Positions 16,128-41,773 of a stretch of DNA of 64,000 bases are shown piece by piece. Every line of letters starts with the position of its first letter. The first letter of the stretch is position 1. Below the pieces are notes generated by a model. It saw only the letters and a list, made by a program, of their open reading frames with translations. It was not told where the DNA came from and did not search any database. Source of the DNA: Limosilactobacillus reuteri (GTDB lineage Bacteria; Bacillota; Bacilli; Lactobacillales; Lactobacillaceae); the NCBI RefSeq assembly GCF_034259105.1, contig NZ_CP139478.1, positions 1,415,001-1,479,000 of the forward strand, given 5' to 3'. The translations under genes and the position numbers were made by a program.

Positions 16128-18842
16128 TTAAATACGATTCCTAATCGCCCATTCTGGATCAATCCATTCACCATGACCCGTTGCTTTGCTTGAATCAGAC
16201 CAACTTGGTACAAATGAATTTTTAAGGTCAACACCATAATTTGGACTAGTATTGATTCCCAAATGAAGATGATCCTTGTCACGGTAGCCAATTACTTGAC
16301 CCGCGTAAATAATATCGTTTGGTTTTACAGTAATCTTATTCCGGTTACTAAATGCTTCTTGGTAGACATAAAGGAAGCGACCATCCCAAATTGTTGTAAA
16401 CCACCACATTGTTTGTCCATTATTATCACGAACAGTATTAACATCTAATACGCGACCACCATGAACAGCATGAACAGCTGAACCAGGGTGATCCTGGGTC
16501 CCAAAGTCTAAGCCATCATGGTAGCCATTCTTGCGAATATTGCTGGTATAGTCAAATTTTTGTCCCTGATAATGCCAACCTTCGCCAGACTGTGGGAACG
16601 GCCAACTCCATCCATCGTTTTGTGGAAGCGCACGGGCAATTCCATCATTTCCAAAGTTATAGCAATGACCATCGACCCAGTTTATTCCGGTATACATTCG
16701 CCCATGCAATTGATCATTGTATCCCCATAAATCATCTGGATCTGGTTGGCATTCATAGCCATCAGAGAAATAATAACGGTTCCCATTAATTGTTCGCCAC
16801 CCAGTTGCTAATTGACCATTTACTGGATCATAATAAACGGTCCCACCATTAAGACTCTGGAAACCATCATTAATGTCAATTTGTGAAGACCAGAAATCTA
16901 GATAATTACCATTGCCATTTGCATCATCTGTATAACGATGAATAACTTTAATTCCCCGATGATTCATTGCCGCGCTAACAGGTAAAGTTGCAGCAAAAGC
17001 CGACTTATTGTTATTAAGCCATGACGTATTCGAACTATTTAGGTTTGAGTTTGTATTATCTAATTTAACACGATAGAATTCATGACCATCAAGGCCGACA
17101 ACAATTAAATATTGATAAGGTCGGCTATTTTCACCGATTGCTTCATGCCATCCCTTAATATTAATATTATTGCCGTTTAAGCTAATATTAGCATTTCCCA
17201 TATTTGTGGAGTAGTTACTACTGAGTTGATCAGTTACTCCTTGATTAGGATATGGATTGCCATCAGTAACTGTTGAAAAACGTAATAAGATTTGAAGATT
17301 ACCGTTAACTAGTTTATTGAGTTGATCTGTACTTAACTTAATATCCGTACTGAAACCACTCTTTGCGCTACCGTACATCGGGGTATACTCGTCCAACATC
17401 GGGACGACCAGTTAAGGATAACTTTTGACGGGTAATTTCTTTTCCATTAAATAAAACAATAAGGTAAGGATTCTGCTGAACTAAACTATTATCGCTTGCA
17501 TCCATCCCTGAACATGCAATCCTTGATCAGTCATCTTTACTTGATCAACGTAAGATGCTGTTTGGTTTAAAGTAACTGGTGATGACCAAAAATCAATATG
17601 TTGACCATCATTACCGTTACCATTTGGATCTGCTGAGTATCGACTAACGACTGAATATTGATGACCTGGTTGGAGTGAATTCAAATTAAAGGTTACATTA
17701 AAACCTGCATTTTCGGCATTTAAGACGTAAGGGTAGGCTTTAGCAACATCTGGGCGAGCAATCCCATTAATTTTCATTGAGGCTACTTGCCGATTAGCTG
17801 TTCGATCAAAAATGATAATAAATCGGTTGCTGGTAACGTTAGATAAATCACTAGCATGCCAACCTGCAACGGTTAATTGACCAGGTTCACTAATATTAAA
17901 ACTGTCAAGCCAGCCCTCATTTACTCGGTTAGCTGGTGCAATTCTTTGTGGTGCAAACCATTCAGTAACATAAGATCCTTCTCCATTAGCAGCATTACTA
18001 TACCGGCTTAAAATCTGATATTGATGGTTAGGATCAAGATTTGCAACATTAAAGACAGCTTTAAAGCCAGAATTATCTGCATTCATTATGTCTGGATAAA
18101 CACGGACAACATCTGGACGCGCTACTTTCTTAACTTCTTGGCGACTAATTTCATGGCCAGCAGTTTGATCAAACAAAATTAAGAAGTGATGATCACGATT
18201 AATTGAACCATTAGTGGCGTGCCAGCCTGTGACAAATAACTGACCATTTTGAACTTGAAATTGGTCTAAACTACCATAGTTACTTTTATCAATTGCAATT
18301 GGTTGTGACCACCAGTCTGTGTGTTGTCCCTCACCAGTTTGCGTATTGCTATAACGGCTAACAACTTGGATAGAATCATTTTCATCCTGCATATTTTTAG
18401 TATTTAACTTAATATTTGAATTGTAACCAGAGTTAGCAGCATTGTACACATTGTGGACCTTTGCAACATCTGGACGAGTAACGTTATTTATTACTTTGCT
18501 TCGTCCTAATTCTTTATTTGTTGTACTATCGTAAGCAATTACAAATCGATTCTGTTCATCAAGGGACTGGTTAGTTGCTTGCCAACCAGTTACTTGAAGT
18601 TGGTCATCATTAAAGTTAGCTTGATCAAGATAACCATAATTCCCCTTATCTTGATGGTCATAAGTTTGATCATTAGTAGGGTTATTAATTTTTTGAACTT
18701 GGCCAGTTGATTGCGGCTGTTGAGTATCAGCAAGCACATTCTCACTAAATACTATGCCAGTTGAAATCGCAATTGTAGTTATTGTCGCAACAATCCATTT
18801 TTTACCACTTTTATATAACTTAAAATGTTTTTTATTTTCCAC
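16128..18842 (-). pseudogene. RDV-repeat M23 peptidoglycan endopeptidase, broken by two frameshifts and an IS at its start codon
   Basis: Two reading blocks in the same frame (17481-18842 and 16128-17399) are joined by about 125 bases read in another frame. Lesion 1 near 17499: WMAS became WMQA through loss of one G (ATGGCAAGC to ATGCAAGC). Lesion 2 near 17374 restores the frame. Restored order: KxYKxGKxW signal peptide (KLYKSGKKW, residues 8-16), five RDV modules of about 115 residues (SGWHA/RPDV/SGF/RYS), one glucan- or choline-binding-like repeat (VYYDPVNGQLATGWRTINGN), then an M23 domain with HDGLDFG and HLHLG zinc motifs. IS30-A copy 1 lies exactly at codon 1: the last base of the IS turns ATG into GTG, but the Shine-Dalgarno is now 1.3 kb away at 20141-20145. 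Probably not expressed. Confidence 0.88.
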
Positions 18843-20120
18843 CTAAATTTCAAGAATAAGTTAGCCACTGGACTCAAATAAATAATACTGACCAATTGAT
18901 TATTGGTTGATGGAGCTGTGATATCTCTTGGTAGAAGGCCTTACGATAGATATCCATTGACGAATGTCCATTAAACATAGCTCGTGGATAGTGATTCATC
19001 CAATCATTAGTCGCTATGATCTGAGCACTACTATAGTTATTTATAGCTTCACCTTTGGTAATCTCCTTGCGGAGAAACCGGTTATTGATCTCATTGGATC
19101 CACGTTCCCAAGGGGAATACGGATCAGCATAGAAAACATGATCGTGAACTTGTGTTAACTCACTAAATTCTGAACCGTTGTCAGAGGTTATTGTCTTAAA
19201 GATGCGATAGTAAGCATCTGTGCCCATTTTCTGGCGTAAATTTATAAAGAACTGATTTACTGCATGCGCAGTTTTACCAGCAATTTTACTCGTGATATTA
19301 ACTCGTGAAAGGCGATCAGTCATTACTAGTACAACACTGTCATTACCGTTTTTCTGTCCCTGAACTGTATCTAGTTCCCAATGGCCAATTTCGGACCGTT
19401 GGTCCGCAGTTTGAGGTCGTTGAGCAATATTAGGCCCTAAGCACCTTTTAGCTTGCGGATGAGTTCGATGATGCTTACGTTTAGGTTTTTCAAAGAGGTC
19501 TAAATTGGACGTACGAAGCACACCCTCATTAATCCATTGATATAAAGTTACAACCGACTTTGGGATCAGGGTGCCATCATTCATTAAATCTCGAGCCTTA
19601 TAAATAACCGCTTGTGGGGAGTAATGGTGGTCGTCAAACTCACCAAGCATTAGCTGATCAGCTAATCGTAAAAATTGCTTTGAAGAATAATATAAGCGAC
19701 GACGACCAGAATGGCGGTGATGTTCAAGATATGTGGCCTGACCAGCTTCATAACTATAGATGTAGTAAGAATATTCGTAAATCTTACCATTAGATTTTTG
19801 ACGACGAAGTTGGCGGACCGTACCACGGTTGAGCTCGTTATTAATTGTTTGATGATTAACTCCTAATTGGCGACCAATTGCGCGATTGGAAAGTCCTTGC
19901 GACTTTAAAGTCGCAATCATCACACGTTCTTCTTTAGTAAGATGAGCATTCTTTTTATGAGTAGTCAATAAACTAGTAGACATGGTATCATTTAAGTGCG
20001 TCATTTGACGGACATCCTTTCATATAGGTTTGGTTCACTTAATATGATACCTGATGTCACGCCGAATGGCGTTTTTTATTTACCACCAACTGGGTGGCTA
20101 ACTTCATTCTATAATCCACC
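18842..20120 (-). mobile_element. IS30-family element IS30-A, copy 1
   Basis: A 1279-bp element. Ends read CCTAAATTTCAAG... and ...TATAATCCACC; inverted repeats share AAGTTAGCCAC about 15 bases in. It is flanked by a perfect 13-bp direct repeat TTTTTATTTTCCA (18829-18841 and 20121-20133). The insertion splits the M23 gene between its ribosome-binding site and the coding sequence. A short terminator-like hairpin ACGCC-GAAT-GGCGT with a T-run lies inside the right end, as in every copy. Confidence 0.95.
18874..20004 (-). CDS. IS30-family transposase (IS30-A copy 1)
   Basis: A 376-residue transposase. N-terminal helix-turn-helix with LSNRAIGRQLGVNHQTINNEL (near 35-55), then DDE motifs WELDTVQG, TSDNGSEF and RGSNEINNRFLRK. 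Identical in protein sequence to copies 2 and 4. Start chosen at the first ATG; a second in-frame ATG follows at codon 8. Confidence 0.95.
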   Translation of the reverse strand: MTHLNDTMSTSLLTTHKKNAHLTKEERVMIATLKSQGLSNRAIGRQLGVNHQTINNELNRGTVRQLRRQKSNGKIYEYSYYIYSYEAGQATYLEHHRHSGRRRLYYSSKQFLRLADQLMLGEFDDHHYSPQAVIYKARDLMNDGTLIPKSVVTLYQWINEGVLRTSNLDLFEKPKRKHHRTHPQAKRCLGPNIAQRPQTADQRSEIGHWELDTVQGQKNGNDSVVLVMTDRLSRVNITSKIAGKTAHAVNQFFINLRQKMGTDAYYRIFKTITSDNGSEFSELTQVHDHVFYADPYSPWERGSNEINNRFLRKEITKGEAINNYSSAQIIATNDWMNHYPRAMFNGHSSMDIYRKAFYQEISQLHQPIINWSVLFI

Positions 20121-20134
20121 TTTTTATTTTCCAT
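20121..20134 (-). other. Stranded 5' end of the M23 peptidase gene
   Basis: The original ATG (20132-20134) and the next few codons remain on the far side of the IS, as part of the target duplication. Its Shine-Dalgarno GGGAG sits at 20141-20145. This shows where the M23 gene began before insertion. Confidence 0.85.
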
Positions 20135-20162
20135 TTTAATCTCCCAATTTATTATTAAACAA

Positions 20163-20203
20163 TAAAAGGGTTAAAAATGTTCCCCAACACTTTAACCCTT
20201 TTT
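20163..20203 (-). terminator. Terminator of the NlpC/P60 gene
   Basis: AAAAGGGTTAAA and TTTAACCCTTTTT form a strong stem with flanking A/T runs. It separates the NlpC/P60 gene from the start region of the M23 gene. Confidence 0.88.
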
Positions 20204-20208
20204 AAATC

Positions 20209-23018
20209 TTAAGCAAACACCCGTCTGATACCTGCAATTACATTACGTTGACCATTAACAATTGGTTGAACCATTACTCTTGGTGGCCAGCTTTCAATTA
20301 CCTGGTTATTACCGAGATAAATCGCAACGTGCCAAATAGTATGGGTTCCTGGTTGATAGTAGAAGACAAGGTCCCCGCGTTGCCAATCATTATATGAAAC
20401 ATTCATAAAGTGCGGATCAGCAAAGAGGTTTCGAGAATTCCATTCATTGCCAGGGAAGCCATGATAGATGGAACTGCATGAAGTTGGATTAATTCCACCA
20501 GCATATAGAGCTTGCATTACTAACCCAGAACAATCAACGCCGTAAGCTGGAGATGAAGAACATCCTGCAAGCCATGGTTTACCCATGTATTGATATGCCT
20601 GACGAATCATTGCTTCAATATGATCTTGACGTGAAGCACCAGCACCTGCTCCAAGTGGGGCTATGTAGCTATCAATACTTGTCCACTGATCAGCAGGCAA
20701 GCCTAATGCAACCCAGGTGTTATAGTCAACCCAACCAGTTGCTGGTAAGCCATGAGCCCGTTGAACACTCATTACCCGGTAAGCATCAGCGGTAGTGTAA
20801 GTGTTATGTTGATAACCAGTCCCAATTCGATCCTTAACTAGTTGCGTCTTAATTCCTTCATAACCAGGGCCGATGTTATGACCAACGGGACCACTTGGTT
20901 GGATTTGACTATAGTTAATTTGGTACATCCATGAAGGATTTTGGTAAAGATTTAAATATTGATTAGTAAGCCATACTTGCGAATAGTTTCCTTCACCATT
21001 ATCTGTGTTACTATAACGACTGACTAATTGCATAGCATCGTGAGCATATTGACCATCAATATTAAAGTCAACTGTAAATCGAGCGTTATTTGCGCCTAAG
21101 ATATTACCATAAACGTTATTAATATCTGGACTGGCAACATTAGTTACTTCTTTTCGAGCGATTTCACGACCCTTACTTAAATCCCATAAGATTATAAAGT
21201 GATGAGAGTCAATCATCGATACATCATCAGCGTGCCAACCAGAAGCAGAAATAGTTGTACCATTTTGAGTAAAGTGATCTAACCATGCTTGATTATTATT
21301 TAAGTTCACATTATTGTTATACCAATAATCAATATGGTTCCCTTCCCCATTCTTGGCATCATCAGTATATCGACTGACAAGAACAAATTGGTGACCAACC
21401 ATTGCTGGAGTGATATCAAACGTTGTATTGTAGCGCGATTGACCAGCATTTTGAATGTTACCATATCCATTTTGGGCAACATCAGCACTAGCAGTTACTT
21501 TCACATTTTCACGAGCAACTTCACGATTTGCAGTCTTGTCAAATAGAATAAGATAATGGTTCTTTAAGAGGGCGGAAGCATCAGCCGCATGCCAGCCACT
21601 TACTACTACTTGTTTATTTGCACCATTAACGTGGAATTGGTCAAGGTAACCAGCTTGATTTGTATATACGTCTACTGCTTGATTATACCAATAGTCGGAA
21701 TGATTTCCTTCACCATGAGTTGCATCATCAGTGTAGCGGCTAACAAGAACAAATTGATGACCGACCATTGCTGGAGTGATATCAAAGGAAGCTGTAAACC
21801 GTGCTTAATCAGCATTATTAACATCAGCAAAGCCATTTTGGGCAACATCCGCACTTGCCAGTGTCTTAACAGCTTGGCGAGCAACTTCATGATTTGCCGT
21901 CTTATCAAACAAGATTAGGTAATGATTAGTTAATACAGTAGATTGATCATTAGCATTCCAACCACTAACAATCACTTTGTTAGACTTATTATCAATTCTA
22001 AATTGATCGAGATAACCAGCATTTTTGTCTTTACCTAATTTAAGAGAATTATTAAACCAGTAATCTGAACGATTTCCTTCACCATTCTTGGCATCAGAGC
22101 TGTAACGACTAACAATCGTTAATTCGTCGCCTAACATTGCTGGGATGATGGTAAAGTTAGCACTGAAACGGGAATGATCCGCATTAACAATTTCACTATA
22201 GCCATTTCGTGCTACATCAGAACTTGTCAAAGTCTTAACAGCTTGACGTGTAATTTCCTTGTTCTTAGTCTTATCAAAAAGAATCAAGAAATGGTTTGGC
22301 TTGTTGACAGATTGGTCATCTGCATGCCAGCCAGAAACTTCAATATTGTTACCATTAACTTTGAAATTATCTAAATAGCCAACCTTAGTTTGAATAGTAG
22401 GATACCAAAAATCGGCACCACTGTTTATTTCACCGTTGGCATCATTAGTATAACGTGAAACGAAGCGGACTGAAGAAGCATTATTTAGACGATCTACTGG
22501 AATCGAAGCTTTAAAACCACCATTTTCAGAAATAGGAGCTTTAGGGTAAACCTTTTGAACATCTGGACGACTAACTGTTTCTACTTTTCCACGATATAAT
22601 TCCTGATTATTATCCCCATTTAAAGCAATTAAGTAATGGTCCATTCCTGTCTTATACTGATTTGTAGCATGCCAACCGCTAACATCAATTGTGTTAGCAT
22701 TGTCAGTATCAGCAGTTACTGAATCAATATATCCAGCATTAACTGGTGTCTTATAATCAGCATTGGTCTGTTGGTTGTTTTTTCAGATGAATTATCTTTC
22801 ACCTGATCGCCAGAATTACTATTGTTATTCCTAGCATTAACTTGTCCATTTTGTGGTGAAGATGTCAAAGTAGTAGTTGGAGCTGTTTGTGTTGCAACAT
22901 CAGCGTGAACATTTGTACTAGCTAATGAAACTCCAGTAGCAACTGCTACAAGCGTAATCATCATCGTACACCAGTTTTTACCAGCTTTAAAAAGCTTATA
23001 GTGGCTTTTTCTTTGCAT
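20209..23018 (-). pseudogene. RDV-repeat NlpC/P60 endopeptidase with a frameshift and an in-frame stop
   Basis: Three blocks: 22716-23018, 21805-22644 and 20209-21768. Lesion 1: an A-tract at 22778-22783 has six A on the coding strand where seven restore the frame. Lesion 2: TAA at 21805-21807 interrupts an otherwise continuous frame between NNAD and ARFTASFD. Restored order: KxYKxGKxW-type signal (KLFKAGKNW), five modules of about 115 residues in which RPDV has drifted to SSDV/SADV/SPDI (modules 3 and 4 nearly identical), a peptidoglycan-binding-like domain (VMSVQRAHGLPATGWVDYNT), then NlpC/P60 with catalytic DCSGLV (Cys) and WHVAIYLG (His). The C-terminal catalytic block is intact but lacks a signal peptide when read alone. 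Confidence 0.88.
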
Positions 23019-23130
23019 AATATTACCTGACTTTCTACAAATAAATTACTTTCACTTAAACACGTTAATTAAATCATAGGTTTAATAATTTTTAAATAGT
23101 TTTTCATTTTTTCTTCACAATTTTCAGACA

Positions 23131-23175
23131 AAAAATAAAGCACTTATGAAGAAAAAACTTCATAACCACTTTATT
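23131..23175 (-). terminator. Terminator of prfC
   Basis: AATAAAGCACTTATGAAG and CTTCATAACCACTTTATT form a long, slightly imperfect hairpin just after the prfC stop. The segment 23019-23130 is the A/T-rich leader of the NlpC gene without a clear consensus promoter. Confidence 0.85.
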
Positions 23176-23180
23176 AACTA

Positions 23181-24758: not shown

Positions 24759-24874
24759 TAATTTTTTCCTTTCCTTATTTTATTCTCGTAAAATATCTCT
24801 ACTATATTATTACAATTTTTTAGGAAAGTCTATTCTTAAAAAAGTTACAGAAAGTTTAAAGTATTGAGATATAT

Positions 24875-24904
24875 TTGAACTTAGGATTAATTTTCTGCTA
24901 TATT
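24875..24904 (+). promoter_or_regulatory. Promoter of the LCP-family gene
   Basis: TTGAAC (24875-24880), 18-base spacer, extended -10 TGCTATATT (hexamer 24899-24904), 40 bases before the ATG. Confidence 0.7.
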
Positions 24905-24943
24905 AATAAAGTTAGAACTTATTTTTATTGAGGTACTTAGTAT

Positions 24944-26413
24944 ATGGATAATAACAATAACAACGAATCGCGGGAACATTACCGTAAACGGATGGAAGAA
25001 CGTATCCAACGTGACGTTAATGAACGCAAGCGTCGAGAACGCGAGGAAGCACACAACAGACGTGAAAATCGTTTGCGACAAGAAGAAGAACAATCGTCAC
25101 CCGATTATCAACCACCAAAAAAGCATCACTATCGAACGCCAAATTGGGTGCGCGCGTTAATTGGATTATTAATTTGTCTAGTAGTGGCCGGCGGATTTTA
25201 CGAATATCATAAAGTTCACTCAGTTGCCAAAGGGGTGTTTGGCGCTGGCGATGGAAAAATTAGTAAAAAGTTACAAAAAGGTGAACCAGTTTCCGTCCTG
25301 GCCATGGGAACAGATGTCGGGGCTTTAGATCGTGGTAACAAGGGTGGTAATACCGACTCTTTGGAACTGTTTACTATTAATCCAAAAAAGAAAACAATTA
25401 CTATGACTAGTATTCCTCGTGATATCCTAGTACGTGTTGAGACTAGTGATGGTCCTGATTATGTTAAAATCAACGCTGCTTATTCAATCAATGGACCAAA
25501 GCAAACCGTAAAGCAAGTATCAGAATTACTTGATGTGCCGATTGATTACTATGCGGTTATTAACATGGGGGTTCTCGAAAAAGTTGTTAATTCCGTTGGC
25601 GGGGTCGAGGTTGATAACCCATTTGCCTTTGACTACGAAGGCCACCACTTCAAGAAAGGTAAACAATACCTTAATGGCGCAAATGCGTTGAAGTATTCCC
25701 GGATGCGGTATGATGATCCAAATAATGATTATGGTCGTCAAAAACGACAACAACAAATTCTAAAGAGCGTTATTAATAAGTTCAAGGCTTCAGGCTCAAT
25801 TGGTGCAGCTAACAAGATTTTAGATGCTGTTGGGGATGGTGTTAAGACCAATATTCCAATTGATGATATTGCGACCTTGTATGGTAACTACCATGGCGCA
25901 ATGAACAATGTTAAGACCTACCATTTCCAAGGACAAAACGCAACGATCGAAGGAGTCTCTTTCCAAATTGCTAGTCCTAAAGAAATTAACCGGGTATCAA
26001 AACTGGTACGAGCTCAACTTGGCTTAAAAGCTAAGAACGTTGTTAACCACGAAACTAAGATGTACAAGTCACAACCACACTACAATGGTTACAATGAGAC
26101 TGACTTTATCCTTCCTGGGGGTGCCAGTTACAATGATCCTGGTAGTGGTAATGGGAGTGATGAAGTTACAGGAAGCTCTCATTCCTCACGACAGAGTGAA
26201 AATGAGACTGAATTATCTTCAACCTACACAGCGGGTAACAATGAAAGCTATAGTGAATCTCGAGCAGTTCCGACAACTGAAAATCAAACCCAGACTGCTC
26301 CTATCCAGCATCATTATTCTACCCCTCAACCCCACACTTATAATAGTTATCACTCAACTTATACTCACCCAACATATGGTAACCATTATGGATATACACA
26401 TCGGTATTATTAA
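24944..26413 (+). CDS. LytR-CpsA-Psr (LCP) family glycopolymer transferase
   Basis: A 489-residue type II membrane protein. It begins with a highly charged Arg/Glu-rich cytoplasmic tail (about 1-65), then one membrane helix (about 68-88). The LCP domain (about 110-355) carries AMGTDVGALDRGNKGGNTDS and TSIPRDILVRV, the pyrophosphate-binding arginine motifs, and YSRMRYDDPNNDYGRQKRQQ. The C-terminal 130 residues are low-complexity Ser/Thr/Tyr/His-rich and probably lie in the wall. LCP enzymes attach teichoic acids or capsular polymers to peptidoglycan, so it may anchor the polysaccharide made by the cluster at 43-61 kb; that link is inference. Confidence 0.92.
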   Translation: MDNNNNNESREHYRKRMEERIQRDVNERKRREREEAHNRRENRLRQEEEQSSPDYQPPKKHHYRTPNWVRALIGLLICLVVAGGFYEYHKVHSVAKGVFGAGDGKISKKLQKGEPVSVLAMGTDVGALDRGNKGGNTDSLELFTINPKKKTITMTSIPRDILVRVETSDGPDYVKINAAYSINGPKQTVKQVSELLDVPIDYYAVINMGVLEKVVNSVGGVEVDNPFAFDYEGHHFKKGKQYLNGANALKYSRMRYDDPNNDYGRQKRQQQILKSVINKFKASGSIGAANKILDAVGDGVKTNIPIDDIATLYGNYHGAMNNVKTYHFQGQNATIEGVSFQIASPKEINRVSKLVRAQLGLKAKNVVNHETKMYKSQPHYNGYNETDFILPGGASYNDPGSGNGSDEVTGSSHSSRQSENETELSSTYTAGNNESYSESRAVPTTENQTQTAPIQHHYSTPQPHTYNSYHSTYTHPTYGNHYGYTHRYY

Positions 26414-26457
26414 TAAAAAAAGCATTTTCGCGAGTTTGGACGAAAATGCTTTTTTAT
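26414..26457. terminator. Bidirectional terminator between the LCP gene and the AI-2E-family gene
   Basis: AAAAAAAGCATTTTCG and CGAAAATGCTTTTTT form a perfect stem with A- and T-runs on both sides, between convergent genes. Confidence 0.93.
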
Positions 26458-27575: not shown

Positions 27576-27589
27576 AGTTACTCCTTAAT

Positions 27590-27629
27590 AAAAACCTTCT
27601 AAAATTGTACCTCAATTCTAGAAGGTTTT
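27590..27629 (-). terminator. Terminator of the RDV amidase gene
   Basis: AAAACCTTCTA and TAGAAGGTTTT form an inverted repeat with A- and T-runs, 17 bases after the amidase stop and upstream of the AI-2E-family gene. Confidence 0.88.
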
Positions 27630-27645
27630 GTTTAAAGATTTGAAA

Positions 27646-29373
27646 TTAAAGATGGGAATATTCGTATTTAACTAGTTCAAAGAAATCCTTCATTGTATAT
27701 GAAGTACCAAAGTAACGAGATGCTCGATTAGCCCAATAGCCATCTGGATCAGTGTGATCAGTCTTTCCATTAGCAATGTATTGAGTAACATTGTGGTGAG
27801 ACCATAAAGTTCCAGTTCCGTTTGCTTGAGCTAGGCTAGGTGCCATTCCATATTCATTCATCTTATATGCAGTGTAGTAAGCTGCGTTTACAAGTTCTCG
27901 GGCAAAGTTATTAGCACCATAAACTTCAACTTGTTCAAACTGATCTGCTCGTCCATTAGCTGGATATGCAGCACCCCAAGCTTCATGATCTGTAGGAGAA
28001 ATTTCAATAATTTGATCTCCATCTACAAATGCGTGAACAAAGGCATTATTGTAATGTGCTTTTTCATAGTTAATCTCGCCCCAAATACTATCATTAGGGT
28101 TAGCAGTTTCATGGACAACAACCATGTTTGGTTTCCCATCTTCTGTTTCACTATATACATCAGTAGTATCAGATGGAATTACATGATTTACAGTAATAGT
28201 CGCATGGTTAATGTGATTATTTAAAATGTAACGATTAATTCCATTTGCATTTAAATTGTATTGCAAATTTACTAGAACAGGATTTGATGATAAATCAATA
28301 AAATTACCATTTCCATCTTTATCATCAGTTAATCGATGAACAAAACGAACTAAGTGCCCTTGCATTTTAGTTGGAATGTTCATTGTTACTTGGAAACCTG
28401 ACTTATTTGCTCCTTCAATATAAGGATAAACATTTTGGACATCATTCCGTCCAAGGCCCTTATCCGTAATCTCTTGGCGGTAAAGTTCTTGACCATTATT
28501 ATCAAGAACAATCAACCATTCATATGGTTTATTACCCGCTTGCGTACTTGCATGCCAGCCACTTAAACTAACCTGACTAGCTGTTACGTGAATATTATCA
28601 AAATTACCAGCATTCGTTGGATAATCTTGACTATACTGATCGCTGTAATTTTGGTTAGCATCATCACCAGCAAACCGCATAATTACTTTAAGGGTGCCGT
28701 TTGCCTTAGCTGGATCCACCTTAAATTCACCGTTAAAGCCACCCTTTTGCGAGTTGTAAATGCTTGGGTAAACTTTAGCTACGTCGGGACGGTCAGTCAG
28801 TTCGACCTTCGTTCTAGCAATTTCTTGACCATCATTCAATAAAATAAGGTAAGCATTAGGCTTGTTAATTGATTGGTCACTAGCCATCCATCCTTTAACA
28901 TTGTAGCCATTATCAGTCTTGGTAAAGCTATCAACATAAGAAGCTTGTTGATCTAACGTTACAGGATTAAACCAATAATCGGTAGTCTTACTTTGACCAT
29001 TATCCCCATTACCACCATCTAACGTTGAGTAACGACTAACAAGACTATAGCTATGGCCTGGGGTAAGATTTACTGTACCAAAATTAGCATTAAAGCCGGA
29101 TTGCCCAGCTGTTGCTACTGTAGGATAAGCCTTTGCCACATCGGGACGAGCAACATTAGTGACCTTAATGGACTTAACTTGCGTCTTATTTGTATTATCA
29201 AATAAGATCAAGTAGTGATTATTTTCAACTTGAGAATAGTCAGTTGCGTGCCAGCCACTAACGATTAATTGACCATTACTAAGATTAAAGGAGTCAAGAT
29301 TTCCTTGGTTACTGGTATTACCTGACATAAATTTTTTAGGTGCAAACCAATAGTCAACCCGGTTGCCTTCACC
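27646..29373 (-). pseudogene. RDV-repeat N-acetylmuramoyl-L-alanine amidase, 3' part (cut by ISLre2-type element)
   Basis: C-terminal portion of a gene whose 5' part is at 32237-33139. It reads GEGNRVDYWFAPKKF at the break, finishes RDV module 2, then modules 3-5 (RPDVAKAYP, RPDVAKVYP, RNDVQNVYP), then an Amidase_2 domain over the last 190 residues. Zinc ligand motifs are VVHETANP, WSHHNV and HTDPDGYW. Removing the insertion plus one 9-bp duplicate (2872 bases) restores one continuous frame encoding about 873 residues. The first ATG in this fragment is at 29328; there is no signal peptide, so the fragment cannot be exported. Confidence 0.9.
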
Positions 29374-29415: not shown

Positions 29416-30835
29416 TTAGTGGGTTAGTGCCTTAAAAAGTTGTCCCATTGGTCTACTTGTGGCCGTGTTAATCGGAATTATTCCTTGTACTGCTCCAATT
29501 GACGGCTTTGTCGGTGCTTTTCTTAGAAACTCTCCAGTTCGAATATGCATTTCCTGTAATAGGCTGGTTTGAGCCACTCGAGGAAGAACTGTTAATTGTT
29601 CTAGGATCGTATTTAAACTAGCTTGCAGTTCACCATTCATTCGGGCTTCAATTAAACCAATCATGGCCTTAGCCCCCTGCTCAGTCCACGACTTGCCCTG
29701 TTTCTTCATCCGGTAAGTAAAAGCCCGGTGAGAACTTTCGACTGAACCGATTAAATGAATATCCTTAAATCCACGCATTTGTGGCGAGAGGATATACCGC
29801 CAATTTCGCTGTAGATATTTTCTTAAACGCATTAGGTCGTCTGCTTGTTTTTCTGTTAAGTTTTGTGATTCATAAGTATCTAAAATTATCGTTAGCTCTG
29901 CTTGATCATGATGGCGAACCGCTTTAATTGCTCGCATAGCTAATTCGTTGTGATGACCTAAAGTATGTTCAATTTTCTGTAAGCAATGATAGCGGTCGAG
30001 AAAGTATTCACCATGTTGCACCTTGAGGAACTAGACTTAATAGCTTAGCTGGTTCGTAACCTGGGCCAGCGTCACTGGCCAAAAAGATCGTTTGACCGGC
30101 AAGCTTATAATGGCGGTCTAAATAATCACTTAGTCGTGCTTCAAGCCGTCCTTGGTGCCCAACACTGAGAAAGTCATGCCGATTAATGATTTGATTAGCT
30201 ACTCGCTCATAAACCCGATAATGGTGCACAAGAGTCAGCTGACCTGCTTCTTTTTTGCCTTTAATCATAAAGGCATCACCCTCAATAGTTAAATTTTTAG
30301 GCATATGGCGAGGAGTAGCTTGGTGTTCTTTTGCTTGAGTTTGTTTAGCTACCTGATTTCCTAACTCATGCACGGCGTGCATTACCGAATCGGCAGTAAT
30401 TCCGCTGTCAAATACAAGGTTCAAAATGTCGGCAGTATTGCGCATTGTAGTTGTTTGGGCAATCTTAGCCATCATCATTAAGTAGTGTGGCGATAAACGA
30501 CGACGTGGTTTAATTTTTAATTGTTGGTCTAAGTAAAATTCACGTTTCTTTGTCCCAACCTGATAATACCGTCGTTGAAAAGTCACCGGGCCAAAGATAA
30601 AGTTAAGCGTCCGTGGCTGTTTATTGATTACTTGATAGTTCGCTGGAGCTTGGGACTTTAAGCTTCGATCTAAGCTTTCCAAAAAGTTTTGCATGATTAC
30701 TTGTCCTAACTCCAATACCCCTTTTAAAATAATCTGTTCAGCTTCAAATAAACTGCCTGATTTCACCAAATTCTGCTCGATTTCTGTTAAAATATCCATG
30801 AGGAAAGACCTGCCTTTGCTTAGTATTCGACACAC
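29416..30835 (-). pseudogene. ISLre2-family (UPF0236) transposase, frameshifted
   Basis: The N-terminal 275 residues (30008-30835) and C-terminal 201 residues (29416-30021) are in different frames and overlap by 14 bases. The first block ends VPQGATW and the second begins MQHGEYFLDRYHC; one missing base near 30015 would join them as one protein of about 470 residues. A good start is the ATG of MDILTEIEQN (codon 13 of the first block, near 30799). Family features seen: FIFGPVTFQRRYY, DGITADSV-type helix and FLASDAGPGYEPAK. Programmed frameshifting is not known to me in this family, so decay is more likely. Confidence 0.82.
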
Positions 30836-30894
30836 TAAAGGCTACTGGTCTTTTCTTTTTTTGTAAATAAGTAAATTGGTCTACAAAAAAGATT

Positions 30895-32173
30895 CCTAAA
30901 TTTCAAGAATAAGTTAGCCACTGGACTCAAATAAATAATACTGACCAATTGATTATTGGTTGATGGAGCTGTGATATCTCTTGGTAGAAGGCCTTACGAT
31001 AGATATCCATTGACGAATGTCCATTAAACATAGCTCGTGGATAGTGATTCATCCAATCATTAGTCGCTATGATCTGAGCACTACTATAGTTATTTATAGC
31101 TTCACCTTTGGTAATCTCCTTGCGGAGAAACCGGTTATTGATCTCATTGGATCCACGTTCCCAAGGGGAATACGGATCAGCATAGAAAACATGATCGTGA
31201 ACTTGTGTTAACTCACTAAATTCTGAACCGTTGTCAGAGGTTATTGTCTTAAAGATGCGATAGTAAGCATCTGTGCCCATTTTCTGGCGTAAATTTATAA
31301 AGAACTGATTTACTGCATGCGCAGTTTTACCAGCAATTTTACTCGTGATATTAACTCGTGAAAGGCGATCAGTCATTACTAGTACAACACTGTCATTACC
31401 GTTTTTCTGTCCCTGAACTGTATCTAGTTCCCAATGGCCAATTTCGGACCGTTGGTCCGCAGTTTGAGGTCGTTGAGCAATATTAGGCCCTAAGCACCTT
31501 TTAGCTTGCGGATGAGTTCGATGATGCTTACGTTTAGGTTTTTCAAAGAGGTCTAAATTGGACGTACGAAGCACACCCTCATTAATCCATTGATATAAAG
31601 TTACAACCGACTTTGGGATCAGGGTGCCATCATTCATTAAATCTCGAGCCTTATAAATAACCGCTTGTGGGGAGTAATGGTGGTCGTCAAACTCACCAAG
31701 CATTAGCTGATCAGCTAATCGTAAAAATTGCTTTGAAGAATAATATAAGCGACGACGACCAGAATGGCGGTGATGTTCAAGATATGTGGCCTGACCAGCT
31801 TCATAACTATAGATGTAGTAAGAATATTCGTAAATCTTACCATTAGATTTTTGACGACGAAGTTGGCGGACCGTACCACGGTTGAGCTCGTTATTAATTG
31901 TTTGATGATTAACTCCTAATTGGCGACCAATTGCGCGATTGGAAAGTCCTTGCGACTTTAAAGTCGCAATCATCACACGTTCTTCTTTAGTAAGATGAGC
32001 ATTCTTTTTATGAGTAGTCAATAAACTAGTAGACATGGTATCATTTAAGTGCGTCATTTGACGGACATCCTTTCATATAGGTTTGGTTCACTTAATATGA
32101 TACCTGATGTCACGCCGAATGGCGTTTTTTATTTACCACCAACTGGGTGGCTAACTTCATTCTATAATCCACC
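30895..32173 (-). mobile_element. IS30-A, copy 2 (nested in the ISLre2-type element)
   Basis: 1279 bp, same ends as copy 1, flanked by the 13-bp duplication TACAAAAAAGATT (30882-30894 and 32174-32186). Confidence 0.95.
30927..32057 (-). CDS. IS30-family transposase (IS30-A copy 2)
   Basis: 376 residues, identical to copies 1 and 4 in protein sequence, with WELDTVQG, TSDNGSEF and RGSNEINNRFLRK catalytic motifs. Intact. Confidence 0.95.
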   Translation of the reverse strand: MTHLNDTMSTSLLTTHKKNAHLTKEERVMIATLKSQGLSNRAIGRQLGVNHQTINNELNRGTVRQLRRQKSNGKIYEYSYYIYSYEAGQATYLEHHRHSGRRRLYYSSKQFLRLADQLMLGEFDDHHYSPQAVIYKARDLMNDGTLIPKSVVTLYQWINEGVLRTSNLDLFEKPKRKHHRTHPQAKRCLGPNIAQRPQTADQRSEIGHWELDTVQGQKNGNDSVVLVMTDRLSRVNITSKIAGKTAHAVNQFFINLRQKMGTDAYYRIFKTITSDNGSEFSELTQVHDHVFYADPYSPWERGSNEINNRFLRKEITKGEAINNYSSAQIIATNDWMNHYPRAMFNGHSSMDIYRKAFYQEISQLHQPIINWSVLFI

Positions 32174-32236
32174 TACAAAAAAGATTTCCACGACCAGATG
32201 AATTATTCATCCAACCTATGAAAATCTTACACTAAC

Positions 32237-33139
32237 GCCTTCACCATTAGCAGCATTACTATAACGACTTATTACTTGTAATTCGTGATTAAAGTCAATC
32301 CCAGCTAACGAGAAAGCTGTATTAAACCCTGAAGCTTTAGCATTAATAACCTGTGGATACACTTTAGCAACATCAGGACGTTCTGTAGCTTCAATTTTAT
32401 TCCGGGCAATTTCGCGTCCCGTTGTTCGATCAAATAAGATGACATAATGATTAGTTTTACCTAAAGCCTGATTTGTCGCATTCCAACCAGAGACTTGAAG
32501 CTGATTATTGGCAACACTAAAATTATCGAGATAAGCATAATTTCCCTTATCAAGATTAATTGGTTGCGACCAATTATCAACATGGTTCCCTTCACCATTA
32601 GCGGCATCACTATAGCGACTAACAATGTGAATCTGGTCATCAACGCTCTTAACCTTACTCCAGTCCAGATTATTCATCGTTGCTTGGTAACCAGAATCCT
32701 TGGCGTTGACCACATCCGGATAAGCCTTGGCAACATCAGGACGCGCCACATTTTCGGTTACCGATGTACGACCTAATTCAGTATTAGTAGTACTATCATA
32801 AGCCACTAAATAACGATTATCCTTGCCAGCGGCTTGATTGGTTGCTTGCCAGCCACTAACATGCAAGTCATTATTATTAACAACTTGAGCAGCATCAAGG
32901 TAGCCATAGTTTCCGTTATCCTTTGCTTGAGCAGACTTTTCTTGACTAGCAAGCTCTGCATTGACATCCCCAGTAGTAGGATTAGTAGTTTTAACTACCG
33001 GTACATTATCAGCCGACGTATCAGCTTTTACATTCGTATTTCCCAATACTAATCCCGCTGAAACTGCCGCAACAGCTAACGCCATTGCGCACCAATTTTT
33101 ACCATCTTTATATAATTTATAGTGTTTCTTTATTTCCAT
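32237..33139 (-). pseudogene. RDV-repeat amidase gene, 5' part
   Basis: Starts at the ATG 33137-33139, preceded by GGGAGAT; longer upstream in-frame starts ignore this ribosome-binding site. It encodes a KxYKxGKxW signal (KLYKDGKNW, residues 7-15), a membrane-spanning signal helix, a short linker, RDV module 1 and most of module 2, up to SNAANGEG where the ISLre2-type element begins. Translation would run a few codons into the IS (stop at 32216). KxYKxGKxW signals are commonly linked with SecA2 export. An IS30-B copy sits 72 bases upstream of the start and may have displaced its control region. Confidence 0.9.
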
Positions 33140-33210
33140 TGTTATCTCCCTATAAGTTAGAAATATCACTATTAAAGATACCACAAAAATGATTACAAAT
33201 TTATTAAGAC

Positions 33211-34280: not shown

Positions 34281-34286
34281 CGAGAT

Positions 34287-35126
34287 TTAAATTATATTCA
34301 TAAATTTATTAAGGGCCGTTTGCCAATCTATAATCTCAAATCCAGTATCCTCGGCCTTCTTCAAGCTCATAACTGAATGACGAGGGCGGTAAGCTTTGGC
34401 CGGATATGCTGAAGAATCAACGGGAGCGACTTCAACATCTTTATCCTTTAAGATCTCGGTAGCGAATTCGTACCAGGAACAACTATTTTCATTAGATAGC
34501 TGGTAGGTACCGAATGGCTGATCATGATTGACTAAGTAAGTCATAAATTCTGCTAGGGTTCTAGTCCACGTTGGGCGGCCAAATTGATCGTTAACGACGG
34601 TGAGCTGATCATGGTCTTTGGCCAGACGAAGCATCGTGTAGACAAAATTCTTGCCATATTTACCAAAGACCCAGGATGTCCGAATGATGTAGTAATCAGT
34701 TAAGATTTCTTGGATTGCTTTTTCACCGGCAAGTTTAGCTTTACCATATTCATTTCGTGGATTAGTGAGCGCATCAACTTCATACTCGCCTTCATTGGTC
34801 CCATCAAAGACATAATCGGTACTGATGTAAACCACCTTAGCGCCAACTCTTTTAGCGGCCTTGGCAACATTGCGCGTACCATCTGCGTTTACTTGCCAAT
34901 TGAGGTCTTTGGCAACATCTTCTGCGTTATCAACGGCAGTATAAGCGGCACAATGATAGATCACTCCTGGCTTAAGGGCACTAATTTTCTCATTTACAAC
35001 GGCTTGATCAGTTATATCCATTTGTTTAGAATCAAAGGCGTCATATGCAACCCCGCGTTCATCCAATAAATTACGTAATTCGGAGCCAAGTTGACCATTA
35101 GCACCAGTAATTAAAATTTTTGTCAT
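34287..35126 (-). CDS. rfbD: dTDP-4-dehydrorhamnose reductase
   Basis: A 279-residue short-chain dehydrogenase that makes dTDP-L-rhamnose from the 4-keto intermediate. N-terminal NAD(P) motif TGANGQLGSEL (near 7-17), HCAAYTAVDNAE, catalytic Tyr-Lys in STDYVFDGTNEGEYEVDALTNP...YGKAKLAGE, and RTSWVFGKYGKNFV, all typical of RmlD. A GGAGAAAA ribosome-binding site precedes it. A terminator-like hairpin (35223-35269) separates it from rfbB, so it probably has its own promoter; TTGAGA-17-TATATC lies on the minus strand near 35160-35190. IS30-B copy 2 starts six bases after its stop. Confidence 0.95.
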   Translation of the reverse strand: MTKILITGANGQLGSELRNLLDERGVAYDAFDSKQMDITDQAVVNEKISALKPGVIYHCAAYTAVDNAEDVAKDLNWQVNADGTRNVAKAAKRVGAKVVYISTDYVFDGTNEGEYEVDALTNPRNEYGKAKLAGEKAIQEILTDYYIIRTSWVFGKYGKNFVYTMLRLAKDHDQLTVVNDQFGRPTWTRTLAEFMTYLVNHDQPFGTYQLSNENSCSWYEFATEILKDKDVEVAPVDSSAYPAKAYRPRHSVMSLKKAEDTGFEIIDWQTALNKFMNII

Positions 35127-35222
35127 TCGTTTTCTCCTTAATTAAAGCTAATTAATGATATAATCAGTTTGACAACAGCTCTCAATATTCTTTCCATGTC
35201 ATCTATCTGTTGTCCTTAAAAT

Positions 35223-35266
35223 AAAAGTCGTGCATTCCTTAAACTTTGGGAATAGCACGACTCTTT

Positions 35267-35269
<3 letters not shown>
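35223..35269 (-). terminator. Terminator after rfbB
   Basis: AAAGTCGTGC-ATTCC and GGAAT-AGCACGACT form a stem with T-runs. It overlaps the end of rfbB and sits between rfbB and rfbD. Confidence 0.8.
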
Positions 35270-36900
<1,631 letters not shown>

Positions 36901-36913
36901 TATCTGTTCACTC

Positions 36914-37783
36914 CTAGTCATGTTGTGCTAACCGTAATAAGTATTGACCATAGTCATTTTTCTTTAACGGTTGGGCCAGTTCTACTAATTGGTCCTTATT
37001 AATGTAACCCATCCGATAAGCAATTTCTTCTAAGGAAGCCACTTTTAAGTTTTGGCGTTTTTCAATCGTGGCGATGAAGTTAGCTGCTTCAAGCATGGAA
37101 TCATGGGTACCGGTATCTAACCAGGCATAGCCACGCCCCATTAACTTGACATCGAGTTTGCCTTGACGCAAATATTCCTTATTGACGTCTGTAATCTCAA
37201 GTTCGCCCCGCGCTGATGGCTGGATGTTTTTAGCAATATCAACTACTTGATTATCATAGAAGTAAAGACCAGTTACCGCATAATTACTCTTGGGATGAGC
37301 CGGCTTTTCTTCAATCGATAAGGCATGCATCTGGTCATCAAAGTCGACCACGCCAAAACGCTCTGGATCATTGACATGGTAGCCAAAGACCGTGGCGCCA
37401 TCAGTTTTTTGTGCTGCCGATTGAACTAAGTCGGACAAACCAGCCCCATAATAAATGTTGTCCCCTAAAATCAAACAAACACTATCGTCACCAATAAAAT
37501 CTTCACCGAGAATAAAGGCTTCGGCGAGTCCATTGGGCTTTTCTTGAACTTTATAAGAGAAGTTTAGTCCTAAATTGGTCCCATCCCCTAAAAGTTCTTG
37601 AAAAAGGGGCATGTATTCGGGGGTAGAAATCACCAAAATATCCCTAATGCCGGCTAGCATCAAAGTCGATAGCGGATAGTAAATCATCGGTTTATCATAA
37701 ACCGGAATCAATTGTTTTGAAATACCACGCGTAATTGGATAAAGGCGGGTTCCTGACCCACCAGCTAAAATTATTCCTTTCAT
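36914..37783 (-). CDS. rfbA: Glucose-1-phosphate thymidylyltransferase
   Basis: A 289-residue nucleotidyltransferase, first step of dTDP-rhamnose synthesis. It begins [20 protein letters not shown], the nucleotide-binding signature, with [29 protein letters not shown] and [26 protein letters not shown] precedes the ATG. First gene of rfbACB; the surrounding promoter region is A/T-rich, without a convincing -35. Confidence 0.98.
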
Positions 37784-37884
37784 AGTGGCCTCCTCATGAT
37801 TAACAAAAATCCTTTCTTATTTTAACACAAGTAATTGAACAATGTTTTTATATTAAAAATTCGCTCTAAGTTTCTATATAAAAT

Positions 37885-39399: not shown

Positions 39400-39440
39400 A
39401 TAAAATAAGCAGCACCTACATTTAAAGTACTGCTTAGCTA
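39400..39440 (-). terminator. Terminator of the GH73 gene
   Basis: AAGCAG and CTGCTT arms with an A/T-rich loop, and ATTTTATA following on the minus strand. The ISL3 element inserted right at the end of its T-run. Confidence 0.6.
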
Positions 39441-39451
39441 TAAACGATAAA

Positions 39452-41773
39452 TTAATATAGATTTTGTGGTAACTTGATAGCATCAAACCAGAAATCAGTA
39501 CGATTGCCCTCACCATTGTTTGCATCACTATAGCGAGAAACTACTTGGATCTCATGTCCAATTAAACTACTATCTAATTTAAATGCTGCTTTGAAACCAG
39601 ATTTAGCAGAGTTATAGATTGACGGATATGCTTTTTGAACATCAGGTCGATCTAAGTTAGTTACTTGTTGACGTGCAATTTCACGGTGAGTTGTAGCATC
39701 ATAAAGGATAACAAAGTGATTCTTTTGGTTATAACTTTGATCAGCGGCTTGCCATCCAGTTACCATTACTTCACCATTTTTTACAACAAAGCTGTCAAGA
39801 AATCCTTGATTGTTGCTTGGGACAGTGGTAGGAGCAAACCATGCATCAGTACGGTTACCTTCACCGTTATTTGCATCACTATAACGGGAAATCACTTGTA
39901 ACTGATGTCCCGCGTAAGCTGCTCTATTAAAGTCAAAGGTAACATCAAAGCCAGACTTGCCAGCATTAGCAATGTTTGGATATGCTCGTTGAACGTCAGG
40001 GCGACTGACATTACTTACTTGTTTACGAGCGATTTCGCGATGAATAGTAGCATCGTAAAGAATTACGAAATGATTTTGCTGTTTAACACTAGCATCAGCA
40101 GCTTGCCAACCGCTAACATGAACTTGGTTATTTGAAATCTCAACCTTATCTAAATATGATTGGTTCGCATTAAACGTTTTTGGTGCAAACCAATAATCAA
40201 CATAATTGCCTTCACCGTTAGCAGCATTACTGTAACGAGAGATTACTTGAATATTGTCACCAATCAACGCCGGACTAATGTTTACTTGAAGGTTAAATCC
40301 AGATTTACCAGCATTGTAAACATTGTAGACCTTGGCAACATCATTACGAATTGCGGAATTAACTTCATATCGACCTAACTCCCGGTTTTTAGTGGCATCA
40401 TAAAGGATAATAAAATGATGATCTTTGCCCGCGGATTGATCGGTTGCATGCCAACCACTAATATTAAGAGTATTAGTAGCAGCATCAATATTGAAATTAT
40501 CAAGATAACCAGCATTGGTATTAAGATTTACCGAATTAAACCATAAATCGTCTCCACCATTTGGTTCCCCATTAGTATTCTTAGTATAACGAGAAACAAC
40601 TTGAATTGCCTTGCCTGCAAAATTAGCAGAGTCCGGAACCGTTAAGCTAAAACCACCCCAACCAGAAATCTTGGTATTTGGATAAACATTTTGGACATCT
40701 TGACGGTAAGTACCAGGAACTTCTTGACGATATAATTCTTGCTTAGTATTACCATCAAGAAGGATGATAAAGTGATGCATACTTTGATCATAATTATTAG
40801 TAGCATGCCAGCCTTCCACTTTAAGGTTGTTTCCTTGAACAGAGACATTATCAATATGACCAGTATTGATGTTGTTATTAAAGGCTTCTTGGTCCCAAGC
40901 AGTCAAATTATATTGACGGATTACACGATTAAGCGTATTTGTATATTGTGGATCAGTAGCGTATCCGTCTTGTCGAATTAAGCGAGTAACAGTTTGATAA
41001 TCTTTTTGACCAATCAAATTACTGTAGCGACTATTTTCTTTTAAGAAACGGCCGTGATCAACAATACTTTCATAATTTGACGGATATGCGCGGAAAGCAT
41101 CATTAATTTGAACATACCGACCACCATAATACTCATAAGTCGGCATTGTAACTGATTGTCCATTGTAAGAACCCTTGATTCCAAACAAGTTATGACCTTG
41201 AGTAGTTAAAGCAGATTGACCCCAACCACTTTCAATAATAGCTTGAGCACCAGTCAATGATGGCAAAACTCCAAATTGCTTCCAGCCATCAACGGCTCCT
41301 TGGTGAATACTTTCTAAAAATTGTACATTACGAGCAGAAAGCCCATTAGTGTTAATGTTACCAGTCCCGCTAACAGTCGTTGAAGCAGTTCCATTTTCTG
41401 GATCAGCTTGGGTATTACTTATTTGGTCGGTCGATACATTAGGCTGGGTGTCAACTGCTGGTGCATTAGCAATATTTTGTGCATTCTCGGCGCTAATATC
41501 AACAGCTCCTTTATTAGGATCTGTATTAGCAGTCTGCTCAGCGGCACGAGTCTGAACAGCTTGGGCAGTCATCAAAGCAACATTAGCATTTTGATAATTA
41601 CTACTTTGTTGATTGTCACTGGTTTGTGTAGTAGTGATCGCTGTATTAGCAGTGGCATTGGTATCATCAGCTTGAGCATTTCCCTGGAAGAAAACTAATG
41701 ATGCTCCAAACGTAAAGATTACTGGTAATACAACACGAAACTGATTGTTTTTTGAGTTACTATCACTTGCCAT
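39452..41773 (-). CDS. RDV-repeat GH73 N-acetylglucosaminidase (autolysin), intact
   Basis: A 773-residue secreted protein. Ordinary signal peptide (about 1-35, cleavage after AQA) rather than KxYKxGKxW. Then a Gln/Asn/Thr/Ala-rich linker to about 145 and a GH73 domain (about 150-300) with AQAIIESGWGQSAL (catalytic Glu), GHNLFGIKGSYNG and YEYYGGRYVQINDAFRAYPS. Four RDV modules of about 115 residues make up the C-terminal half: RQDV, RNDV, RPDV, RPDV with SGF and RYS. Domain order is thus catalytic first, unlike the broken hydrolases. No LPXTG motif; the modules probably hold it on the envelope. The only intact RDV hydrolase here, preceded by a WalR-like box. Confidence 0.93.
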   Translation of the reverse strand: MASDSNSKNNQFRVVLPVIFTFGASLVFFQGNAQADDTNATANTAITTTQTSDNQQSSNYQNANVALMTAQAVQTRAAEQTANTDPNKGAVDISAENAQNIANAPAVDTQPNVSTDQISNTQADPENGTASTTVSGTGNINTNGLSARNVQFLESIHQGAVDGWKQFGVLPSLTGAQAIIESGWGQSALTTQGHNLFGIKGSYNGQSVTMPTYEYYGGRYVQINDAFRAYPSNYESIVDHGRFLKENSRYSNLIGQKDYQTVTRLIRQDGYATDPQYTNTLNRVIRQYNLTAWDQEAFNNNINTGHIDNVSVQGNNLKVEGWHATNNYDQSMHHFIILLDGNTKQELYRQEVPGTYRQDVQNVYPNTKISGWGGFSLTVPDSANFAGKAIQVVSRYTKNTNGEPNGGDDLWFNSVNLNTNAGYLDNFNIDAATNTLNISGWHATDQSAGKDHHFIILYDATKNRELGRYEVNSAIRNDVAKVYNVYNAGKSGFNLQVNISPALIGDNIQVISRYSNAANGEGNYVDYWFAPKTFNANQSYLDKVEISNNQVHVSGWQAADASVKQQNHFVILYDATIHREIARKQVSNVSRPDVQRAYPNIANAGKSGFDVTFDFNRAAYAGHQLQVISRYSDANNGEGNRTDAWFAPTTVPSNNQGFLDSFVVKNGEVMVTGWQAADQSYNQKNHFVILYDATTHREIARQQVTNLDRPDVQKAYPSIYNSAKSGFKAAFKLDSSLIGHEIQVVSRYSDANNGEGNRTDFWFDAIKLPQNLY

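Follow-up and report, generated by a model that had tools for sequence, protein, structure and literature searches.

A repeat module shared by wall hydrolases, surface proteins and phage endolysins of Limosilactobacillus reuteri, and its probable role as reader of an rml-linked wall polysaccharide

We analyzed a 64,000-nucleotide stretch of Limosilactobacillus reuteri DNA (the window; C3:1415001-1479000 of a 2.27-Mb genome in three contigs), in which four cell-wall hydrolase genes carry tandem copies of one repeat module of about 117 residues. An original prediction, made from the letters alone, had described these genes as a family with four different catalytic domains, each gene having four or five modules, about 110-120 residues long and of the RDV type of L. 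reuteri glucansucrases. Pfam does find four different domains, namely NLPC_P60 (E 4e-11), Amidase_2 (E 7.6e-9), Glucosaminidase (GH73; E 8.8e-37) and Peptidase_M23, the last below cut-off (E 3.9e-5, 24.2 bits with a cut-off of 28.7), and an iterated profile gives five modules each for the M23, NlpC/P60 and Amidase_2 genes and four for GH73; the repeats in these genes are real. The family thus stands as described with regard to modules and domains, and the prediction had overlooked that three of the genes are broken and that phage and adhesin-like proteins also carry the module. Only the GH73 gene is one intact frame. The M23 gene forms two open frames, with module 4 frame-shifted, the NlpC/P60 gene forms three, with an internal stop in module 3, and the Amidase_2 gene is split within module 2 by about 2.8 kb containing insertion sequences, so that frame changes, a stop within a module and mobile-element insertion all contribute to the damage:

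16128..17399, minus strand: M23 gene, downstream piece, with the end of module 4, module 5 (16866-17189), a choline-binding-like repeat and the M23 peptidase (~16254-16523, below the Pfam cut-off)
17481..18842, minus strand: M23 gene, upstream piece, with a KxYKxGKxW signal, modules 1-3 (18279-18635, 17937-18275, 17556-17915) and the start of module 4; the frame-shifted stretch 17199-17526 comes next
20209..21768, minus strand: NlpC/P60 gene, downstream piece, with the rest of module 3, modules 4-5 (21289-21651, 20944-21288), a PG_binding_1-like segment (below cut-off) and NlpC/P60 (~20269-20580)
21805..22644, minus strand (stop-to-stop frame 21808-22782): NlpC/P60 gene, middle piece, with modules 1-2 (22384-22734, 22039-22380) and the start of module 3 (21670-22017, containing the stop)
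22716..23018, minus strand: NlpC/P60 gene, signal-peptide piece (KxYKxGKxW) in another frame
27646..29328, minus strand: Amidase_2 gene, downstream piece, with modules 3-5 (28942-29304, 28606-28941, 28261-28608) and Amidase_2 (~27745-28137)
29416..32057, minus strand: insertion sequences within module 2 of the Amidase_2 gene, comprising an IS30 transposase (30927-32057) and another transposase-like gene whose frame is broken (29416-30021, 30008-30835; kind assigned by eye)
32216..33184, minus strand: Amidase_2 gene, upstream piece, with a KxYKxGKxW signal, module 1 (32540-32905) and the cut module 2 (32222-32536)
39452..41773, minus strand: intact GH73 glucosaminidase gene, with the catalytic domain at ~40904-41296 and four C-terminal modules (40514-40861, 40160-40510, 39809-40159, 39461-39805), the last forming the protein end

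The window GH73 protein shares 98% identity with a protein from Limosilactobacillus reuteri WF-AA1-C, and relatives have longer open frames for M23 (L057 305-3844, below cut-off) and NlpC/P60 (L060 4195-7782; handles beginning with L, G and f denote our loci, genomes and families). Because one IS30 copy and other elements interrupt or flank the module genes, the module locus of this strain looks to be in decay. Four near-identical IS30 transposase genes (0-3 differences, the family being assigned on one of the four) lie in 30 kb of the window, at 18874-20004, 30927-32057 and 42070-43200 (minus strand) and at 47245-48375 (plus strand).

The profile, seeded from one module and iterated over the window and two other stretches of the genome in six-frame translation, recovers 33 copies of more than 70 residues, of which the window contributes 17, and chance is excluded because their E-values range from 7e-33 to 1.5e-48. 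A genome-wide search with alignment A1 (23 modules, two of the rows being prophage endolysin modules) gives 46 matches, fragments included, which are located in the window, at 1.479-1.489 Mb just past it, at 1.368 Mb and on both smaller contigs. The module follows the RDV consensus (R-x-DV ... S/AGF/Y ... R(Y/F)S, with D and GW upstream), with R absent from three of the four NlpC/P60 modules compared, and the profile also matches both GH70 frames of genome G262. On this basis of motif and profile we identify it as the RDV repeat of Lactobacillus GH70 enzymes, in agreement with the type assignment of the original prediction and with its assumption that glucansucrases carry such modules. The RDV repeats described in PMC11299179 occur in 16 GH70 enzymes, always N-terminally and in five copies, and the authors consider an interaction with the cell wall. 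The module resembles them in consensus and in its predicted beta-sandwich fold, which is FNIII/Ig-like; in contrast to that description, its occurrence here is general, extending over wall hydrolases, surface proteins and phage proteins, and a single protein carries between 1 and 7 copies.

Conservation among 216 non-identical modules from Lactobacillaceae and their phages is highest at D4 (0.95), G17 (1.00), W18 (0.99), R53 (0.93), D55 (0.98), G70 (0.94), F71 (0.93) and R91 (1.00). A set of 17 modules, mostly from Enterococcus phages and family f3, shows a similar picture, with D4, GW17-18, R53xD55, G70, R91 and G98 kept across families. According to PMC11299179, the corresponding residues cluster at the surface. 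Pfam and NCBIfam scans of the window's module stretches gave no family model over cut-off, and no fn3 sequence family matched over cut-off in window proteins or relatives, the sole FN3-type match in the window Pfam scan being Fn3_Dep-1_1st (E 0.0017, 18.8 bits, below the cut-off of 26). In relatives' module stretches, a few weak and unrelated-looking Pfam matches over cut-off appear (THSD1_N, NAGLU_N, DUF2963 and others), as can happen with repeats.

Further carriers lie elsewhere in the genome. Beyond the window, L009 encodes a C39-type peptidase with five modules, a second M23 protein with five, and a module gene with a signal, which is split into two or more frames and has a GH53 frame behind it. 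A GH53 frame (endo-galactanase family) right behind a broken module gene is noted at window 62841-63884 and L009 3841-7915; the two were possibly one protein formerly, in which case the partner would lie outside wall hydrolysis. Both M23 proteins (window 16128-17399; L009 12567-15308) have a choline/glucan-binding-type repeat, mostly below cut-off, between modules and peptidase. On contigs of about 98 and 99 kb, L023 and L024 encode surface proteins with DUF285 (BspA-type) repeats, MucBP domains and four modules at the protein end. Since the module occurs in these surface proteins and in other carriers beyond the window, it is not confined to wall hydrolases. In the window GH73 protein and in each of the two DUF285/MucBP proteins, the module array is followed by 0-1 residues, and the Pfam matches of the L023 and L024 proteins, whose arrays stop one residue before the end, include no anchor domain of the covalent LPXTG kind. 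Transposase genes lie near both DUF285/MucBP genes (L023 4192-7575 and L024 483-4406), which are perhaps mobile adhesins.

Among relatives, 20 proteins were scanned, and over cut-off we observe GH25 in seven, Amidase_2 and GH73 in two each, and NlpC/P60, M23, C39 and a Sipho_tail domain in one each; of the rest, one is a further M23 below cut-off and four have no catalytic match. Database relatives (the best 120 of 616 and the best 120 of 1094 proteins) add PF03734, which we take to be YkuD, Amidase_5 and PF13354, with one protein named serine hydrolase. In the specific case of the five own-genome arrays (M23, Amidase_2, C39, second M23 and the array before GH53), each of the 23 modules has as its best match the module at the same position of another protein (23/23), with mean identities of 52% at the same position between proteins and 34% within a protein. 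Because best matches are position-specific across proteins, the unit exchanged between catalytic domains seems to have been the entire five-module cassette.

The module is also homologous to the C-terminal domain of endolysins. The genome's own prophage GH25 endolysin (L010 1956-3392) adjoins a PHROG holin, has two terminal modules and matches end to end PHROG 35916, a family of "unknown function". With these two modules as the query, 61 phage records matched, all of them (61/61) from Enterococcus, at about 25-34% identity and with coverage of at least 80% in 31; among the 60 phage records listed, 52 are annotated as endolysin, lysin or amidase. Furthermore, the A1 profile matches the C-terminal domain of EfAmi1 (chain 8c4d) at E 2.4e-14, with single window proteins reaching 2.3e-7 and 4.7e-7, and a fold search among viral models returned a single match at E <= 0.001, the endolysin of Enterococcus phage Zip (E 1.5e-7, TMq 0.75). 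Two modules are found in gp175 of phage EfV12-phi1 (1.5e-15 and 2e-14, searching with the 17 window modules only and Z set to 10,000), and L. reuteri-type endolysin modules occur in nine IMG/VR loci. The phage of LysEFm5 is likewise represented, its endolysin being among the module matches at E 1e-3. PMC12406537 gives LysEFm5 as active on E. faecium only, and PMC10167349 gives EfAmi1 as most active on E. faecium and weaker on many other species; the former range fits a specific reader, the latter fits less well.

A second phage setting is the tail. In the G042 prophage the module lies within an 844-residue protein between the tape-measure and a Tal-like protein, which belongs to PHROG 202 ("distal tail protein Dit"), and five IMG/VR loci have a module at the equivalent place in frames of similar length, one of them ended by the contig edge. 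One of the five is identical to that of G042 over the module and four are at 45%, Pfam and PHROG confirming the Dit identity in one of these four. This is in line with the evolved Dits of PMC7291167, in which carbohydrate-binding modules are inserted in a protein likewise flanked by tape measure and Tal-like protein; those modules are described as often having a BppA fold, unlike the RDV module found here.

Across the order, 19 of 295 sampled genomes have modules, 14 of them in family f3, which is probably Enterococcaceae. Module frames of f3 include a phage lysozyme, Amidase_2, Amidase_3 and an Amidase_5/tail-lysozyme protein, in which the module match is partial. L082 and L083 of this family encode a further kind of wall amidase, Amidase_3 proteins in which 1-3 modules are combined with a DUF5648 domain. 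In family f8 of the same order, L088 1486-1983 is a 166-residue frame, secreted-looking by eye, that holds little beyond one module.

With respect to the ligand, the window contains genes for a wall polysaccharide next to and between the module genes:

34287..37783, minus strand: dTDP-L-rhamnose genes rmlD (34287-35126), rmlB (35267-36307), rmlC (36319-36921) and rmlA (36914-37783), each above its NCBIfam equivalog cut-off; the group is flanked by the GH73 and Amidase_2 module genes
24944..26413, plus strand: LCP family (LytR-CpsA-Psr) glycopolymer transferase (TIGR00350 over cut-off), between module genes
48503..61606, minus strand: polysaccharide genes, with glycosyltransferases (51598, 56126, 57052), a Wzz-like gene (54299, below cut-off), a flippase-type Polysacc_synt gene (59033) and the UDP-galactopyranose mutase gene glf (60479), among open reading frames of other or unassigned kind

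The rml genes are the likely source of the ligand's sugar, and the LCP transferase is a candidate for attaching the polysaccharide to peptidoglycan. The order in the window is GH73 array, rmlA, rmlC, rmlB, rmlD; an ISL3 element separates GH73 from rmlA, and a further transposase gene, recognized by eye, separates rmlD from the amidase gene. Nine named loci were fetched and eight tested, L062 being left out because it ends inside GH73, and five of the eight show this order (L055, L056, L060, L061 and L063, of which L063 has only the module end of GH73 on its contig); L057 and L058 end soon after GH73, and L059 (L. coleohominis) has no rml gene in the 2.8 kb behind it. The rmlB of L060, L061 and L063 has only 47% identity to that of the window.

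Across 397 genomes of the family, PF00908 (the rmlC family) is found in 136, comprising 21 of the 25 genomes with modules (at most 11 candidates scored per genome) versus 115 of the 372 without (P = 1.8e-7). Among 50 genomes of the genus, the corresponding counts are 21/24 versus 8/26 (P = 5.5e-5), and rmlC is present in 17 of the 18 genomes with at least 13 modules. Where both lie on one contig, the nearest listed module is at most 12 kb from rmlC in 14 of 15 genomes of the family sample, and 1.0-12.2 kb from it in 16 of 18 genomes of the genus (15 at 1.0-2.8 kb); in other genera the distance is 4.5-10.8 kb in 7 of 7. The family and genus sets share eight genomes, and in their union 23 of 25 have a module within 12.5 kb of rmlC. 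Short contigs favor such nearness, and the few-contig genomes G000, G077, G208 and G658 are also near. As a control, GH73 genes with modules lie 2.5-23 kb from rmlC on the same contig (n = 9) versus 11-950 kb for those without (n = 25; P = 1.8e-5), and in genomes with both kinds the moduled copy is the nearer one in 7 of 7.

Wall binding is the common need in these settings, because the module sits at the C-terminus of endolysins, as an insertion in Dit and at the end of surface proteins free of a sortase anchor, and is common to enzymes that cut different bonds; as a role predicted from these comparisons it is well supported, and a common surface ligand, as first proposed, appears the best reading. 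We therefore favor, as the probable explanation, a non-covalent cell-wall-binding domain that reads the polysaccharide made at the rml locus. This polysaccharide is the likely ligand because of the patchy distribution of the module together with the rml linkage, and presence in 25 of 397 genomes suits a variable wall polymer better than peptidoglycan. Module arrays would keep secreted proteins, with no covalent bond, on walls bearing a particular secondary cell-wall polysaccharide, most likely a rhamnose-containing polymer from the rml and glycosyltransferase genes that surround the module genes. Through the module, the host would position many wall hydrolases of different bond specificity and would also display adhesin-like surface proteins and, in some relatives, glucansucrases, and phage endolysins, a tail lysin and Dit proteins would employ it to recognize a similar wall. 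From the computed evidence (homology, fold prediction, domain partners, terminal position, gene linkage and co-occurrence) we infer in addition that the avidity of four to five copies matters, and that GH70 enzymes use the module for anchoring and not for product binding; it is probably a general wall-attachment tag, not a dextran binder. We hold a wider proposal more tentatively, giving it chances close to even: Limosilactobacillus and relatives may have a surface-display system built on one wall glycan, in which the rml-linked polysaccharide serves as the dock. It would be read by dozens of modules per genome, borne by hydrolases, adhesin-like proteins and glucansucrases; these modules would spread in cassettes of five, come and go with the polymer and have been copied by phages that recognize a similar polymer.

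Several observations weigh against an rml-made ligand. Some PF00908 matches, in both groups and including G083 among the 21, score more weakly (E ~1e-36) and may not be rmlC proper, and the partial match of G644 (7e-22) was counted as positive. Four module genomes of the family have no PF00908 match: G104 and G064, the latter a genome 65% complete, have one partial module each, G042 has only the prophage Dit, and G298, with six modules, is a true exception unless the draft missed the gene. In the genus, G646 (27 modules) and G648 also have no match, and 8 of 26 genomes have rmlC without a module. The one-contig genomes G045 and G659 have 2-3 modules, which lie 703 and 835 kb from rmlC. Five of the 25 module-free GH73 copies, all in other genera (G035, G025, G069, G143 and G181), also lie 11-24 kb from rmlC, and linkage can reflect a shared surface island instead of the matching of ligand and reader. 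Moreover, the genomes are related, so that Fisher values overstate independence, and rmlC indicates rhamnose supply, not polymer structure.

The strongest competitor, although an unlikely one, is peptidoglycan itself as the ligand, for instance a cross-bridge common to enterococci and limosilactobacilli, with an incidental rml linkage. The partners of the module are mostly peptidoglycan enzymes, EfAmi1 lyses several species and its authors suggest (PMC10167349) that the homologous C-terminal domain recognizes peptidoglycan, and the module-free GH73 genes near rmlC would fit as well. However, peptidoglycan is general while the module is restricted to 25 of 397 family genomes, the rml linkage and co-occurrence speak for a linked product, and insertions in Dit are described as carbohydrate-binding (PMC7291167). 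Less probable still is a ligand-free FNIII-like spacer or stalk that hitch-hikes on an island with the rml genes: the FNIII/Ig-like beta-sandwich, the tandem arrays and the module-free GH73 genes near rmlC in some genera are compatible with it, but modules that number one or two at the free C-terminal end of an endolysin, or just one inside Dit, have nothing to space, and the residues listed above are conserved across families and, per PMC11299179, cluster on the surface, though the salt bridges there may be structural.

This leaves the alpha-glucan that the original prediction had named beside the nearby-encoded polysaccharide; the latter gains from the rml linkage and co-occurrence. The own genome has no GH70 gene. 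In the 397 family genomes, modules occur in 25 and GH70 in 81, with both in one where about five are expected, GH70 thus being found in 1/25 module genomes versus 80/372 others (P = 0.038); in the genus the counts are 4/24 versus 6/26 (P = 0.73), so the co-occurrence with glucansucrases that was looked for did not emerge. The GH70 frames of four genus genomes do carry modules, namely G262 and, where module and GH70 places share contig and frame length, G651, G657 and G658; the module rides on glucansucrases without following them. A product-binding repeat carried over from glucansucrases, as the first description of RDV repeats in GH70 enzymes (PMC11299179) and these four genomes might suggest, is very improbable, because the own genome has no GH70, co-occurrence is absent in both samples, six genus GH70 genomes manage without modules and phage endolysins would have no evident use for glucan binding.

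Pneumococcal choline-binding proteins share one non-covalent wall module among host hydrolases, surface proteins and phage lysins. The present case is similar in that GH73, M23, C39 and DUF285/MucBP host proteins and a GH25 prophage endolysin of the same strain carry one module; in contrast, the fold differs, the ligand presumably differs too, and Choline_bind-type repeats sit separately in both M23 proteins. Closer in sequence are the EfAmi1 C-terminal domain, homologous at the E-value given above, and probably some of the "unknown CWB" (cell-wall-binding) domains of enterococcal Amidase_2 endolysins (PMC10167349, PMC10630273). PMC10630273 assigns 56 of 171 cassettes to Amidase_2 with unknown CWB and names the phage dArtagnan, which is among the module-matched phage records; the accessible parts of both papers draw no tie to RDV repeats or lactobacilli. 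One explanation would cover three unnamed things, namely the RDV repeats of glucansucrases, the unknown binding domain found in endolysins of enterococci and an uncharacterized, large L. reuteri-type surface-protein family, with the gene neighborhood yielding a prediction of the ligand. It would tell how such gut bacteria keep hydrolases and surface proteins attached to their wall without a sortase, and which part of the wall some of their phages recognize.

Module number can reach extremes in the genus sample, with 91 (G651), 83 (G077) and 80 (G378) matches in genomes of about 1.7-2.0 Mb.

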